In this document: one piece after another, positions 25,108 through 33,352 of the stretch
How positions within the stretch are numbered: position 1 is the stretch's first letter
Layout of the letters: each line of letters opens with the position of its first letter
Assembly: GCA_020444475.1 (NCBI GenBank)
Contig: JAHLKV010000004.1
Span: 396,304-460,303, forward strand
Direction of reading: 5' to 3'
Source of the DNA: a bacterium
GTDB lineage: Bacteria > Zixibacteria > MSB-5A5 > GN15 > FEB-12
DNA: 64,000 bases
Notes under the pieces: generated by a model
Told to the model about the DNA's origin: nothing
The model's database searches: none
The model's input: only the letters and a program-made list of their open reading frames with translations
Made by a program: the position numbers and the translations under genes

Positions 25108-26277
25108 CTACGGCGCAGGGAAGCTGGTCGAGTCAGTCACCGTGATGGTATCGTATAAGGTATCCGGGTTGTTGCAGTCATTATCAACCGCGAGGAAGAC
25201 CTCGTAGTCACCAGCCGTGTCGTACGCATGGTTGGCGACAGCGGAAATCGAGGTTGCGCCGTCGCCGAAATCCCAGAAGTACGAGGTTGCATTCGATACC
25301 GCCTGATTGGCAGTGAACGTAACACTGGTGACGTTCGAATCAATTTGTCCGGTGGAGAAAGTCGCCACTGCCAGCGGCTTCACGTACACTGCGTTGTTGA
25401 GCGTATCACCGACTACGAGGCCCTCAGTGTAAACCTTATTGTAGATTCTCTTGCTTCCCGAACCGGTGTAGGATGAATAGATGACCGGCGAAATGTCCTC
25501 TCGCACGGAGTCGTCGACCTCAAAGAACCAGTAGATACTGTCGATATCCCCCGTGACCGTGAAATCGACAGTTACCGGCTCCAGTTCACAAACCGTATCC
25601 TGCTCGAGTCCACCGTTAACCGTCCACGATACAGCGGCGCAGTCCCGTACATCAAGAAGGTCCTCGCGGACGATTGTCGAATCCCCGCAGGCGCCGCTGA
25701 CAGTGAGCGAGACGGAGTAGACGCCCGGCTGAGTGAACGTGTAGTCCGGGTTCGACCGATAGCTGGAATCGATAATCGAGGAGTCAGCGGTGTAGAACAT
25801 CCACTTGTAGTCGGTGATGCCGCCGGTCGATAAATTGATGAACTCGATCCGCGTCCCGACACACACCAGCAAATCACCCCCGGTCGTGAAATCGGCAATC
25901 GGGTTGGACACCAGTATGTACCTCGTCTTGCTCTCGGAGTCCGTGCGGTCCAGCGAGTCGCCAACCAGCAACGACACCGAGTAGAACCCCGGCTCTATAA
26001 ACACGAACTGGGGATTGGTATCCCGCGACGAGTCCACGATACTGTCCGAATAGCGGATCACCCAGCTCCAGCTGTCAACCGGTCCGTTGGACTCATCCGA
26101 CAATGTCACCGTGCACGGCGCACAGCCTTCGCGCTTGTTGGCGGAAAACTCGGCTTCGGGATAATCAAAAACAACCGTCGTGTTGCTTTCCGTAATCAAT
26201 TCGTCGCAGCCGGGTCCGGTGATAATGAGAGCTATGACAAAGAGGGCGGACGCGGCCAGAAGCAGTTTACGATGCAT
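25108..26277 (-). CDS. Lipoprotein with three PKD-like domains
   Basis: This 389-aa protein begins with a lipoprotein signal ending 'IITGPGC' (Cys24). It contains repeated PKD-type beta domains recognised by 'FVFIEPGFYSVSLLV', 'YTFTQPGVYSVSLTV' and 'YFWDFGDGATS ... TAGDYEVFLAV'. A fourth segment around 210-300 looks related but degenerate. PKD proteins usually act in adhesion or substrate binding at the cell surface. The gene is monocistronic. Nothing indicates a specific ligand. Confidence 0.85.
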   Translation of the reverse strand: MHRKLLLAASALFVIALIITGPGCDELITESNTTVVFDYPEAEFSANKREGCAPCTVTLSDESNGPVDSWSWVIRYSDSIVDSSRDTNPQFVFIEPGFYSVSLLVGDSLDRTDSESKTRYILVSNPIADFTTGGDLLVCVGTRIEFINLSTGGITDYKWMFYTADSSIIDSSYRSNPDYTFTQPGVYSVSLTVSGACGDSTIVREDLLDVRDCAAVSWTVNGGLEQDTVCELEPVTVDFTVTGDIDSIYWFFEVDDSVREDISPVIYSSYTGSGSKRIYNKVYTEGLVVGDTLNNAVYVKPLAVATFSTGQIDSNVTSVTFTANQAVSNATSYFWDFGDGATSISAVANHAYDTAGDYEVFLAVDNDCNNPDTLYDTITVTDSTSFPAP

Positions 26278-26470: not shown

Positions 26471-26557
26471 CGATTGTAACAAATTGTTGCAAGCCGGCCG
26501 GAACCGCCCCTCCTGCAGCCGGTATAAGAGTCAGCGAGACAACCAGATCCAAACCGC

Positions 26558-26586
26558 TTGCCTCGGAGGAGTCTTTTCGCTATTAT
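26558..26586 (+). promoter_or_regulatory. Candidate promoter of the beta-propeller gene
   Basis: TTGCCT (26558-26563), 17-nt spacer, TATTAT (26581-26586). The -10 box overlaps the left arm of a long inverted repeat (26582-26596 with 26642-26656). Confidence 0.4.
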
Positions 26587-26656
26587 CTCGACTGTTATCG
26601 ATATATGAACGAAATCAGAACTCTCGACGTTACTTTGTGCAAACAGTTGAGATAAT
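26582..26656 (+). promoter_or_regulatory. Long inverted repeat: structured leader or operator
   Basis: Bases 26582-26596 can pair with 26642-26656 over 15 positions with a single G-T wobble (ATTATCTCGACTGTT against AACAGTTGAGATAAT). The 45-nt interior is not obviously structured. It is followed at once by a terminator-like hairpin. It could be the stem of a regulatory RNA, or a DNA site that loops, since the candidate promoter's -10 box lies on the left arm. Confidence 0.55.
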
Positions 26657-26657
26657 C

Positions 26658-26696
26658 CCGTACTGATCGTCGCTCGACCGGGTACGGACTTTTTTT
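26658..26696 (+). terminator. Terminator-like hairpin directly before a start codon
   Basis: CCGTAC (26658-26663) pairs with GTACGG (26682-26687) around an inner GTCG/CGAC stem, followed by ACTTTTTTT. It ends 13 nt before the GTG start of the next gene. No plus-strand gene lies upstream for 1.6 kb, so it is either an attenuator in a leader or the 3' end of a small RNA. Confidence 0.55.
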
Positions 26697-26709
26697 GTGG
26701 GAGCGTAGT

Positions 26710-29349
26710 GTGAGAACTATTGGATCTCTGTTTCTCGCCCTTCTGATCATTCCAGCCGCCTTTGCCGAAACACCCAACACCTATCAGTTGACACCGTCCC
26801 GTCAGGCCGCGGATGCCGCCTCCGTCGCCCCTGACACCGGACTGGTGACCAACTCAGCGGTTGATATCGTGGTGCACAACGGCGGAGTCTGGCTCGGCAC
26901 CAGCAAGGGACTGATGTTCACCTACGATGGCGGACAAACCTGGCTTCGATACGATCAGTCCAACGGACTGATCAGTGCCAACCTCTCGGCTGTCTGGGCC
27001 GATCCCGATGATGGCCGTCTGTGGATCGGCAGCAACCACGACGAGCTCATTCAGGAACAGCTGTACACCCTTTCCGACGGTATCTCGTATACCGACGATG
27101 CCGGCGACAACTGGACCACAGTAGACTTCTCCATCTCCGGGCAGAACATCCCCTATGTCACCGGAGGCAGCCGACAGATCTTCGATATCACCGGCCTGGA
27201 CCATCCCACCCTCGGTGGGGATTGGCGCTTTTTCGCCGCCTTCGCCGGCGGCCTGCTTGCCTCCCAGGACGGGGGCGCTAACTGGCGAAGGATCTTCCCG
27301 ACCCCGTCGGATTCGGTCCAGTACTACACGGTTGGCGCGACACCCTCGCTGCGCAACCGCTACTTCTCATGTATCGCCGACAGCGCCCACGCCGACTCCG
27401 TCTTCATGTGGGCCGGGACCGCGTCCGGTATCTTCCAGTACGTCTGGGTTGAACCCGGCGACAAACTCTACAACCGGACCATGCGCTCGGTCGCGTTCTG
27501 CGATACCTGCTCACTCGATGATGACATCTCCCTTTATATAGGGGGCAATCTCGGTCTCAGCCGGGGCAGGTTCACCGGCGGACCGTTCGATACGAAATTC
27601 GAGTCCGATGGCCTCCCCGGTGAGTTCATCTCCGCGCTCGGCGTCTTTGAAGGACGCCTGGTGCTCGGAATCCTTGATCTGCCCGGCTTGACGCCGATCG
27701 TCGCTTACTCCGACGATCAGGGTGAAACCTTCACCGAAACCACGCCTGCCGGTCTGACCGACAGCGTCACCCACTTCGAACGTATGGGCGACCGTATCTA
27801 CATGACCGCGGGGACCTCAGGTCTCTACGTCTCCAACGACACCGGCCTGAGCTGGACCCGCCTCTACATCGACTCGACCGACATGCCGTCGGCCGTCAAC
27901 GCCGCCAACGCGCTCGAAATCATGGCCGACACCCTCCGGGTCGGCACCGACTCCGGCTATGCGGCCATCACGATGGATCCGTCGGGTAACTTCGACTCGG
28001 TTTTCATTAACAGCGATACCGTCTTCGTTGAATCGCTGCGCCGTTCGCGCCGAGTAGTCGGTATCCGCACCCAGCAGCTCGACACCGACACCATCACCTG
28101 GCTGCTCTGTCACCCGGCGACAGCACAGGGGACACCGGTTGTGCTTTACACAAATGACGGTGGCGTCGACTGGGACGGCCGCTTCGCCGACTCGATCATG
28201 ACCGACATCGAGATAGTCAACGACACCCTCTATGTCGTGGGCCAGGACGGCATCTTCTACAATACTACGGGCGACGGTACCGACTTCATCACCGGCTCGA
28301 TAACCTCCGGCGGTTTCTCGCTTGCCGATGACTCCGTCTATACCGTCGTGGCTCGTGATTCGCAACTCGTGTTCGGAACCAATCGCAGTCTGGCGCTTTC
28401 GACCCAGCCCGATTCCCAGCGCGTCTACACGATCTACCGCGCCAACTTCGATACCCTGACCGCCGACGTCATCATAAACTACACGTTCGACAACACCCTG
28501 CTGGTCGACACCGGCGGTGTCCGGGTCGGTCTCACCGGCGACTTCGTGCCCGCGATAGACATCCAGTACCGCGATGGTGGCCAGCGCCCTCGCATCTGGG
28601 CTTCGGGCCGTCCCGTCGCCAGCGGCGGCAACGGCATCTCGGTCGCCCGCTTCGATGAAACCGAAGTCGTCGACACCCTCGGCACCGTCCTCGACACCAT
28701 TATCCAGACCCGCTGGCGCGGCGTCAATTTCGAAGACTACGCCTGGAACTTCGCGTTCGACGGCGAGGTCGTCTTTGCGGCCACCAACGCCGGCCTCCTT
28801 ATGAAAGACATGAGCGCCGCCGACAGTCTCGAAGGCACCTGGGACACGGTCCGTTTCGAGAGCACCAATGAGACCCTGGTCAACCCCGGGACGCCCGTCT
28901 ACGCGGTCGAGGTCGTCGAAGACGGCCCCGACAAGTATCTCTGGGCCGGGACCGACGACGGCACGGTGCGAATCAATCTCGACGACTTTTTCGATCAGCG
29001 GCGCTTCTACTACACCGATGAGTCCGCTCCCGACGACGAAGTCTACGCCTTCCCGACACCGTTTAACCCGGACCGGGGGGAGCAGCTTGACTTCCACTTT
29101 ACGGTCAAGGCCAATGCCTACGTCACGCTCGAGATTTTCGACTTCGCCATGAACCTTGTCGCAACGCCGATCGACAACGTCTTCTTGACGGCCGGCATCT
29201 ATCACGGCGGTACGCCGACCGGGGGACAGGGCATCCAGTGGGACGGCTACAACGACAAGGGCGACCTTGTCGCGGTCGGCGTCTACTACTTCAAAGTTAC
29301 CTATTCAACCGGCGAGGTCCACTGGGGCAAGCTGGCGGTGATCCCATAG
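26710..29349 (+). CDS. Secreted beta-propeller (BNR/Asp-box-like) protein with FlgD-like C terminus
   Basis: The start is GTG 26710 with GGGAG just upstream, giving the signal peptide 'TIGSLFLALLIIPAAFA'; a TTG at 26695 is less likely. The 879-aa product has recurring Asp-box-like blades: 'YDGGQTWLRYD', 'SQDGGANWRRIF', 'SDDQGETFTET', 'SNDTGLSWTRLY', 'TNDGGVDWDGRF'. Many repeats are also rich in 'DTL/DTV'. The last 90 residues form a FlgD-Ig-like domain ('FPTPFNPDRGEQLDFHFTV', 'GIQWDGYNDKGDLVAVGVYY'). It is followed 9 nt later by two PorV-like genes, so it may be cargo or a surface partner of that outer-membrane pair. Confidence 0.82.
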   Translation: MRTIGSLFLALLIIPAAFAETPNTYQLTPSRQAADAASVAPDTGLVTNSAVDIVVHNGGVWLGTSKGLMFTYDGGQTWLRYDQSNGLISANLSAVWADPDDGRLWIGSNHDELIQEQLYTLSDGISYTDDAGDNWTTVDFSISGQNIPYVTGGSRQIFDITGLDHPTLGGDWRFFAAFAGGLLASQDGGANWRRIFPTPSDSVQYYTVGATPSLRNRYFSCIADSAHADSVFMWAGTASGIFQYVWVEPGDKLYNRTMRSVAFCDTCSLDDDISLYIGGNLGLSRGRFTGGPFDTKFESDGLPGEFISALGVFEGRLVLGILDLPGLTPIVAYSDDQGETFTETTPAGLTDSVTHFERMGDRIYMTAGTSGLYVSNDTGLSWTRLYIDSTDMPSAVNAANALEIMADTLRVGTDSGYAAITMDPSGNFDSVFINSDTVFVESLRRSRRVVGIRTQQLDTDTITWLLCHPATAQGTPVVLYTNDGGVDWDGRFADSIMTDIEIVNDTLYVVGQDGIFYNTTGDGTDFITGSITSGGFSLADDSVYTVVARDSQLVFGTNRSLALSTQPDSQRVYTIYRANFDTLTADVIINYTFDNTLLVDTGGVRVGLTGDFVPAIDIQYRDGGQRPRIWASGRPVASGGNGISVARFDETEVVDTLGTVLDTIIQTRWRGVNFEDYAWNFAFDGEVVFAATNAGLLMKDMSAADSLEGTWDTVRFESTNETLVNPGTPVYAVEVVEDGPDKYLWAGTDDGTVRINLDDFFDQRRFYYTDESAPDDEVYAFPTPFNPDRGEQLDFHFTVKANAYVTLEIFDFAMNLVATPIDNVFLTAGIYHGGTPTGGQGIQWDGYNDKGDLVAVGVYYFKVTYSTGEVHWGKLAVIP

Positions 29350-29358
29350 GAGTTTGCC

Positions 29359-30342
29359 ATGAAACATCTCTTCATAACAGCCCTCGTGAGTCTCGCCCTG
29401 CTGTCACCCGCCGTGATGGCCGGAGACGGTGACGGCGGCTACGGCGGCGCCTTCTACCAGGTCCCCGTCGGCGCCCGTCCGACCGCCATGGGCGGCGCCT
29501 ATCGCTCGATATCCAACGACGGCGCCGCACCGCTGTTCAACCCGGCCGGGCTCGCCCTGCTCGACCGCACCCTGATCGCATCCTCCTATCGCGCCATGAA
29601 GCTCGACCGTCAGATGGGTTACTTTACCGCGATGATCCCCGTTGAAGGGGAGACCGCGATCGGCGTGCACTGGCTCTACGCCGGCTCCGGCAGCGTGCGG
29701 GAGCGCGACGGTGACGGCTTCGATCTCGGCCGCGACTTCTCGCTCAACAGCCACCAGTTTTCGGTCGTCTTCGCCAAACGCTTCGAGAAGTACCTCGCCG
29801 TCGGCGCCAACCTGAGCTATCTTTATGCGCACTTTCCCGAAGTCTCCGCGACCGGTGTCGGCTTCGACTTCGGCGGCATCCTCTTCGTCGACGAGCTGAT
29901 CGACCGCGAGAAGCGGATCGACATGCCCGTCCGCGACATCCGTATCGCCCTGACCGTTCGGCACATCGGCAAAGAGTACATCTGGAACAGCGAAGCCTAC
30001 AATGCCAGGTACGATGGCAACGCGGTCGGCTACGAGCAGACCGACAAGGTGCCGATCGAAGCTGCCCTCGGCGCTTCGGCTCGCTTCTTCAATCGCAAGC
30101 TGCTGCTGGCGGCGGACCTGTCCAAAAACGAGAAGCAGGATCCGATCGCCTATTTCGGCTCCGAGTTTTTCATCCGTCCGGAGTTCGCCCTTCGCGCCGG
30201 CTACTACCAGTCGCGCTTCACGGCCGGCACCGGCTACGTCTTCACGTTTGGTAACATCACCATGGCGGTCGACTACGCCTTTACGACCGACCGCCAGGAT
30301 GAAGGCTCCGAGCATATATTCTCATTCGACTTCCTTCTGTAG
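29359..30342 (+). CDS. PorV/UPF0164-like outer-membrane beta-barrel protein
   Basis: This 327-aa protein has a signal peptide ('MKHLFITALVSLALLSPAVMA'). The family start block is 'VPVGARPTAMGGAYRSISND' followed by 'PLFNPAGLALL'. Amphipathic strands continue to the terminal 'HIFSFDFLL', ending in an aromatic/Leu pair as outer-membrane barrels do. In Bacteroidetes PorV shuttles type IX cargo; the family is wider than that. It is paralogous to the next gene and lies within one operon with the upstream propeller protein (AGGAG at proper spacing). Confidence 0.85.
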   Translation: MKHLFITALVSLALLSPAVMAGDGDGGYGGAFYQVPVGARPTAMGGAYRSISNDGAAPLFNPAGLALLDRTLIASSYRAMKLDRQMGYFTAMIPVEGETAIGVHWLYAGSGSVRERDGDGFDLGRDFSLNSHQFSVVFAKRFEKYLAVGANLSYLYAHFPEVSATGVGFDFGGILFVDELIDREKRIDMPVRDIRIALTVRHIGKEYIWNSEAYNARYDGNAVGYEQTDKVPIEAALGASARFFNRKLLLAADLSKNEKQDPIAYFGSEFFIRPEFALRAGYYQSRFTAGTGYVFTFGNITMAVDYAFTTDRQDEGSEHIFSFDFLL

Positions 30343-30359: not shown

Positions 30360-31253
30360 ATGCGAACCCTGATCGTGATTTGTGCCCTGATGTTGATGAC
30401 CGGCGCCGCGCTTGCCAACGACGGTCTCGCCCTGATGCGGGTTGAGCCCGGTGCGCGCCCGTCCGGTATGGCCGGCGCGTTTGTGTCGATTTCCGGCGAC
30501 CCGCTCTCCAGCGCCTACAATCCGGGTGGCGCGTTCGCCGACGCCGACCTGGTGACCTCGTTTGGTTACAACACGTACTGGGAAAACATCGATCTCGCCG
30601 ACGGCTTTTTCATCGCACCGCTTTTCGAGAAGTGGTGTCTGCACGGCGGCATTCGATATGCGGGTGTGAACAATATCGAAGGTCGCACGCAGCCGACCCT
30701 TGATCCGCTGCAGGTGACGAATATCGACGCCGAGGACGTTTCTTTCAAGGCCGGTCTGAGCTATCGGGTGACGCCGAAAATCGCCGTCGGTGTCGCGGCG
30801 GGCTGGTTTCTCGAGAAGATCTCCAGTTATCGCGGTTCGTCGTTTAATATCGATCTCGGCGTGCACATGCTGGCCACTCCGGCGCTGGCGCTGGGCGCCT
30901 CGGCGACCAGTCTCGGCTCCGACTTCCAGCTCGAAGAGTCCGGGCAGGTTCGCTCGCGCGATATCTCCCTGCCGACAACGTATCGCATCGGCGGCTCGTA
31001 CACGTACGACCGCTATCTCGGCGCTCTCGATATCGTCTATGTCAACGATGATCCCCATGTGCACCTTGGCGCCGAGGCCGAAGTGCATCCGGTCTTTTCG
31101 GTGCGGGCGGGAGTAATGACCGGCTATGACTCGAAAAACATCACGGCCGGCGGGACGATCCGCGAGCGCAATTTCTCGTTCGACTACGCCTTCGTTCCGT
31201 ACACCAACGACTTCGGGACCTCTCATTTGTTCAACCTGACGATTACTCTCTAA
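30360..31253 (+). CDS. Second PorV/UPF0164-like outer-membrane protein
   Basis: This 297-aa protein has a signal peptide ('IVICALMLMTGAALA') and the same opening block as its neighbour ('VEPGARPSGMAGAFVSISGD ... SAYNPGGAF'). Alternating strands run to 'SHLFNLTITL'. It begins 17 nt after the first PorV-like gene with GAGGCG upstream. Tandem duplication followed by divergence is the simplest history. Confidence 0.83.
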   Translation: MRTLIVICALMLMTGAALANDGLALMRVEPGARPSGMAGAFVSISGDPLSSAYNPGGAFADADLVTSFGYNTYWENIDLADGFFIAPLFEKWCLHGGIRYAGVNNIEGRTQPTLDPLQVTNIDAEDVSFKAGLSYRVTPKIAVGVAAGWFLEKISSYRGSSFNIDLGVHMLATPALALGASATSLGSDFQLEESGQVRSRDISLPTTYRIGGSYTYDRYLGALDIVYVNDDPHVHLGAEAEVHPVFSVRAGVMTGYDSKNITAGGTIRERNFSFDYAFVPYTNDFGTSHLFNLTITL

Positions 31254-33186: not shown

Positions 33187-33352
33187 GCCGTGACCCCGGA
33201 TCAAGTCCGGGGCATGCTTTAGTCACGGTGCGCACGCTTGTCGTATGTGAGTTCGGTGTTCGTTGCCGTGACTTCAGTCACGGTGCGCACGCTTGTCGTA
33301 TGTGAGTTCGGTGAACCGTGACTGAAGTCACGGCCACGCAGAGTCACGGCCA
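33187..33352. repeat. Cluster of 38-bp direct repeats and CCGTGAC palindromes
   Basis: A 38-bp unit beginning AGTCACGGTGCGCACGCTTG occurs twice without mismatch (33221-33258 and 33276-33313, 55-bp period). Palindromes CCGTGAC-TTCA-GTCACGG (33266-33283) and CCGTGAC-TGAA-GTCACGG (33316-33333) flank and interleave with it. CCCCGGA-TCAAG-TCCGGGG (33194-33212) precedes it. Further GTCACGG copies lie at about 33343. Only two direct copies and a 17-bp interval argue against a CRISPR array. Confidence 0.85.

Follow-up and report, generated by a model that had tools for sequence, protein, structure and literature searches.

A candidate transcription attenuator in the leader of a surface-protein operon of Candidatus Zixiibacteriota

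What do a long inverted repeat and the terminator-like hairpin beside it do immediately before a gene for a signal-peptide protein? Both lie on the plus strand of the window (the whole 64,000-nucleotide stretch of DNA analyzed here), within a 152-nt segment that runs up to the start codon. By sequence inspection, the left arm of the repeat (26582–26596, ATTATCTCGACTGTT) and its right arm (26642–26656, AACAGTTGAGATAAT) form 15 pairs, including one G-T. The hairpin, CCGTAC...GTACGG (26658–26687), is followed by AC and by seven T (26690–26696), and the whole element (26658–26696) was taken as intrinsic-terminator-like on account of its sequence, its fold and its recurrence in relatives. A Shine-Dalgarno-like GGGAG (26699–26703) starts 2 nt past the T-run, and the GTG start (26710) follows 13 nt past the last T. 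When the coordinates were read again, the repeat with its single G-T, the adjoining hairpin with seven T and the distance to the GTG were all as given in the preliminary description of this DNA. RNAfold drew the repeat stem and the terminator stem together; in stability, the 152-nt segment did not stand out from its shuffles (z −0.51, with 55 of 200 as stable), and its minus strand gave a z of −1.54.

Concerning the genes behind these elements, ORF and domain searches gave a signal-peptide, beta-propeller, FlgD-Ig-like protein (26710–29349, plus strand), with a FlgD_ig score of 26.6 bits, just below the cut-off of 27. Against the NCBIfam PorZ model the protein reached 19.2 bits (cut-off 260) over its C-terminal part only, and a PDB profile search with it found no PorZ structure, so that "PorZ-like" is used here as a description of layout and not of membership. 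Two PorV/PorQ-family genes follow on the same strand, one 9 nt past the propeller gene (29359–30342; NF033709, 102.3 bits, cut-off 90) and the other 17 nt past the first (30360–31253; 92.4 bits, same cut-off). The next gene is of the isocitrate/isopropylmalate dehydrogenase type, and visual inspection of five other loci at 20 kb (L119–L123) showed the order propeller, two PorV-like genes, dehydrogenase in every one. In Porphyromonas gingivalis, an attachment complex has been described in which PorZ acts with PorU, PorV and PorQ (PMC8545088). Named relatives were sought by protein scan; a single-sequence query gave none and an alignment query 38, and these belong to Candidatus Zixiibacteriota or candidate division GN15. 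On the other side of the segment, a PKD-domain protein gene (25108–26277, ORF and domain search) lies divergently on the minus strand, and thus no same-strand gene stands directly 5′ of the terminator. Farther downstream, at 33230–33350, an inverted repeat around CCGTGACTTCAGTCACGG and two direct copies of GCGCACGCTTGTCGTATGTGAGTTCGGTG have the look of a small repeat element.

The recurrence of the hairpin was followed through the orthologs of the propeller gene. All 61 genomes searched had one at E ≤ 0.001 (several as short partial matches), and at 1e-60 so did 50 of 54 genomes of the family. Upstream regions were readable for 68 of 78 genomes; left out were G017, G044, G051 and G058, whose matches were short or weak, G061, G062 and G068, which had none at 1e-60, and G064, G070 and G074, on account of contig ends. 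A hairpin with a T-run no more than 32 nt from the start was present in 37 of the 68 orthologous regions. The same code, run on 442 control ORFs, gave 5 such cases (own genome, 400 kb: 3 of 261; G039, 300 kb: 2 of 181). In this comparison the 68 start codons were picked by hand from ribosome-site listings, the T-runs having already been seen in some, while those of the controls came from an automatic rule, and the genomes counted are related rather than independent (the upstream regions of G072, G073 and G075 hardly differ). The terminator score followed a d'Aubenton-Carafa-type formula with a gap penalty of our own; its gap-free version missed the hairpin of the window itself, and gaps were then allowed for the count of 37. 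By family, the positive regions were 23 of 47 in the own family (f1), 6 of 6 in f2, 8 of 12 in f4 and 0 of 3 in f3, the three families with positives belonging to a single order of Candidatus Zixiibacteriota; in two further f4 genomes (G042 and G050) a terminator lies 38 nt from the start, outside the range. In most positive genomes the T-run ends 8–17 nt 5′ of the start. The own genome holds nine places with T6, GGAG and RTG in register (12 matches listed), and only the site of the window combines a hairpin immediately next to the T-run with a long ORF downstream. A regulon of the same module was looked for in the own genome and not found.

The pairing of the terminator stem is kept despite changes of its sequence. 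In most genomes the stem starts with GCCG and ends with CGGC, and its loop varies in sequence and length. In a table of 37 rows (G067 and G075 were omitted because they lacked an anchor, and G042 and G050 were entered manually), the pair at position +3 was paired in 33 rows against a mean of 22.8 in shuffles, none of 2000 shuffles doing as well, and it occurred as UA, CG, UG, AU, GC and GU; the paired percentages of the table lean upward, since anchoring fixes the CC/GG pairs and folding had served to select the hairpins. In the ten f4 sequences alone, both sides had changed in 6 of 11 pairs, the covariation score was 0.287 against 0.183 (1 of 500 shuffles), and 82.7% of the alignment cells were paired, a share that fell to 25–50% when the sides were slid by 1–3 columns. 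Covariation, which the preliminary description had named as the check for both stems, was thus found for the terminator in the form of compensatory changes and was not found for the long inverted repeat. A model built on the f4 terminators (R1) was discarded as a family model: besides its ten training sequences, it recovered from the 68 sources four f1 sites, in the right place and only weakly (E 0.25 to 0.58), along with weak matches elsewhere.

Upstream of the hairpin, a −35-like TTGCCT (26558–26563) and a −10-like TATTAT (26581–26586), both on the plus strand, form a promoter-like pair with a spacing of 17 nt. The candidate −10 that had been noticed on the left arm of the repeat is present as a pattern, and it is conserved in relatives. 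The pattern TTGC-N17,19-NTATKWT occurred between −200 and −80 in 42 of 47 f1 upstream regions and in none of the five other 120-nt bins, and it sits 5′ of the terminator position; TTGAC-N17,19-TANNTT occurred in 6 of 6 f2 and 9 of 12 f4 regions, again in no other bin. Measured from the end of the −10, the start codon lay 99–144 nt away in f1 genomes with a terminator, 137–141 nt away in f2 and 133–139 nt away in f4 genomes with a terminator. In the own genome, CTTGC-N18-CTATTWTC has two mismatch-free occurrences. Judging from the position of TATTAT, the RNA would start near 26593, inside the left arm, giving a predicted 5′ leader of about 117 nt (26593–26709, plus strand). Leader sequence differs between genera, while leader length is constant within a few bases in f2 and in f4.

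Several other sequences were seen in and around the leader. In f2 and f4 upstream regions (e.g., L065, L063, L082) a GGAGG lies 8–15 nt past the −10, near the predicted RNA 5′ end; all 6 f2 regions and all 9 f4 regions for which a promoter was called have it (15 in total, at 8–12 nt), as do 2 of 42 regions of the own family, the window being without one there. With the codons read by eye, this GGAGG mostly lacks an ordinary start codon at the usual distance; it is a pseudo ribosome site about 60–80 nt 5′ of the terminator. In the window, ATGAACG...CTYGACGT (26607–26657) recurs in the three congeners; it would give leader-peptide ORFs of 10–16 codons with no ribosome site by eye, none was seen family-wide, and the end of the leader ORF in the window is altered by a 1-nt indel. 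An imperfect dyad, TTGTAACAAATTGTTGCAA, lies 5′ of the promoter (26474–26492) as a possible operator and, by eye, is not kept in the congeners G001 and G002.

Considering promoter and terminator together, the hairpin and its T-run are probably, in our estimation, a leader transcription attenuator of the operon of PorZ-like, PorV-like and PorV-like surface proteins. The promoter-like and terminator-like elements, their order, their recurrence and the compensatory changes of the stem can be read directly from the genomes, and from them we infer promoter use, termination and regulated read-through. Given that the terminator recurs at the same spot in many relatives, control of the operon probably lies in whether RNA polymerase is allowed past it. 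The polymerase would start from TTGCCT-17-TATTAT, near 26593, and would have made about 104 nt by the T-run, where either a short RNA would be released or read-through would lead past the ribosome site into the operon, so that operon output would be the share of polymerases passing the terminator. Because the T-run ends so close to the start codon, there is no room for another promoter and the RNA of the gene itself must pass the terminator; because the upstream gene is divergent, the terminator of the window could affect only transcripts that start between the two genes. These two circumstances, with the position of the terminator between promoter and ribosome site, argue that it acts on the operon's own RNA, as an attenuator does. 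By sequence, then, the gene has what marks an attenuator, namely an intrinsic-terminator signal in its own leader, between promoter and gene. Of the three roles suggested in the preliminary description, the attenuation leader is the one favored by the conserved promoter, the placement of the terminator and the compensatory stem changes. The second, a small RNA with its own terminator, would hold in so far as such an RNA would be a by-product of attenuation; a conserved trans-acting RNA is disfavored, since MAFFT alignment across the family shows no conserved sequence from the promoter to the hairpin.

The search for what might set the read-through covered structure, pairing and known families. 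Over 36 genomes, no structured leader was found (mean fold z 0.00), nor a pairing of the leader with the 5′ arm of the terminator (mean z +0.24), the arrangement expected of an antiterminator, which may instead be bound by a regulator. MAFFT alignment and RNAalifold of the leaders gave no consensus fold in f1 or f4 and only the terminator in f2. Rfam gave no match at the gathering score, its only hit being a chance match on the other strand (E 2.7). A riboswitch was accordingly set aside, there being no Rfam family, no conserved ligand-binding fold and no conserved leader sequence. As a speculation that we hold to be rather improbable, the site could be an order-wide attenuator of a surface-attachment operon that itself lacks an aptamer, a leader peptide and an antiterminator, where a dedicated elongation or RNA-binding factor would set read-through by recognizing the GCCG/CGGC stem or the part of the leader next to the promoter; the GGAGG at the leader start in two families, a strong ribosome-binding sequence with no start codon, could recruit the 30S subunit, couple it to the polymerase and suppress the terminator.

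Several observations count against attenuation: the absence of a terminator, by score, from 31 of the 68 regions, the failure of the leader-fold, pairing and Rfam searches to find a conserved sensor, the T-run of the window standing 2 nt from its stem, and the greater frequency of terminators downstream of a same-strand neighbor. The negative regions are scattered over the tree, so the terminator is dispensable; in a protein tree built from 42 of the 68 genes (21 with and 21 without a terminator), well-supported branches force at least seven changes between presence and absence. In the upstream regions of G005, G033 and G077, CCGTATT...AATACGG-like arms enclose a loop of about 70–80 nt and are followed by a weak T tract; they are possibly a decayed or long-loop version of the terminator. 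The dependence on the neighbor bears on the alternative that survives best, an insulating terminator that mainly stops transcription from upstream, whether from same-strand genes or from stray starts, and that a strong promoter of the operon would tolerate with no regulated read-through. Where the upstream gene lies on the same strand, 22 of 30 genomes had a terminator, compared with 11 of 33 where it is divergent (5 of the 68 were unclear), as this alternative would have it, the direction classes being crude ORF calls on genomes that are not independent. However, the terminator lies 3′ of the promoter-like pair, so that the operon's own RNA would be affected, and the upstream neighbor is divergent in the window, in G001 and in G002. 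On balance, insulation as the main role seems unlikely.

Less likely still is that the stem-loop and the U-tract act on translation or mRNA stability, as a stand-by site, by S1 binding or by protection of the 5′ end. U-rich tracts 5′ of a ribosome site can aid translation, and the hairpin leaves the ribosome site free and lies just 5′ of the place where the 30S subunit binds, which agrees with such a role. Nevertheless, stem and T-run are 0–3 nt apart in most genomes (2 nt, AC, in the window), a hallmark of intrinsic terminators that a translation element would not need.

As to the long inverted repeat, pairs with 15-nt arms, at most one wobble and a separation of 20–100 nt were counted in dinucleotide shuffles. 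None of 2000 shuffles of the local 152 nt gave such a repeat, yet shuffled 64-kb windows held a mean of 0.17 such pairs (30 shuffles, 3 copies having any); from these counts, the repeat is locally unusual and one per 64 kb is only about a one-in-ten event. In an alignment of the three species of the genus, the stretch between the −35 and about 26613 hardly varies, the left arm is conserved in G001 and nearly so in G002, and the terminator with GTGGGAG is kept in all three; of the right arm, 14 of 15 bases are kept in G001, giving one further G-T pair, and the arm is broken in G002. The conservation of the left arm is probably due to the promoter. About 11 of its 15 bases lie 5′ of the predicted RNA start, so the repeat could not form an RNA stem, and as the main feature of the leader such a stem was rejected, given the conserved −10 in the left arm and the loss of the right arm in G002. 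Since most of the left arm, the −10 included, lies 5′ of the predicted RNA start and the right arm is kept in only one of the two other species, the repeat was placed outside the mechanism, and it is most likely a bystander. That it is functional, either as paired DNA-looping operators or as an RNA stem made from a start farther upstream, is very unlikely: the local shuffles, its persistence in G001 and a TATAA at 26523 that is present in all three congeners and could be a more upstream promoter speak for it, while the broken arm in G002, the number of pairs expected per 64 kb and the −10 box, which accounts for the left arm, speak against it. The looping operator, the third of the roles suggested earlier, would need this repeat, for which support ends at two species and whose left arm overlaps an independently conserved −10. 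A repeat element or MITE was likewise dismissed, the own genome containing, besides the repeat itself, only two 14-base chance matches and no second copy.

To our knowledge, Candidatus Zixiibacteriota are known only from metagenome-assembled genomes. Literature searches found nothing on Zixibacteria with type IX secretion, the promoter motif or a riboswitch, and among the matches listed for Zixibacteria with attenuation, all were on other subjects by title. The attenuator proposed here would be a concrete conserved cis-regulatory site in this phylum, linked to a single operon similar to the type IX secretion attachment module, and its position, conservation and covariation make it directly testable. 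Once relatives are compared, the eye-catching long repeat and the plain hairpin exchange their importance.

Terminator-type riboswitches have the same layout, a terminator and then a ribosome site; those of Rfam differ from the present leader in that no gathering-score match and no leader sequence conserved across the family were found here. Another class to compare is the general one of leader attenuators with an intrinsic terminator, exemplified by premature 3′ ends in E. coli 5′ UTRs (PMC7815308). No leader peptide, aptamer or alternative pairing is recognizable family-wide here, and the likeness lies in sequence signals: an own promoter, a leader of about 100–140 nt, a terminator 5′ of the ribosome site and the gene behind it. 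In the LoaP/dfn system, as outlined in PMC12691694, a NusG paralog acts in antitermination and an elongation factor brings about read-through of an intrinsic terminator in the operon leader. Here, a conserved extra leader hairpin was not found in 36 genomes, and a NusG-domain protein, even the housekeeping one, was not found in the own genome, which is 79% complete; what is shared is a leader with an intrinsic terminator before an operon. The class of attenuator to which the site would belong is an ordinary one, and this instance of it is conserved.
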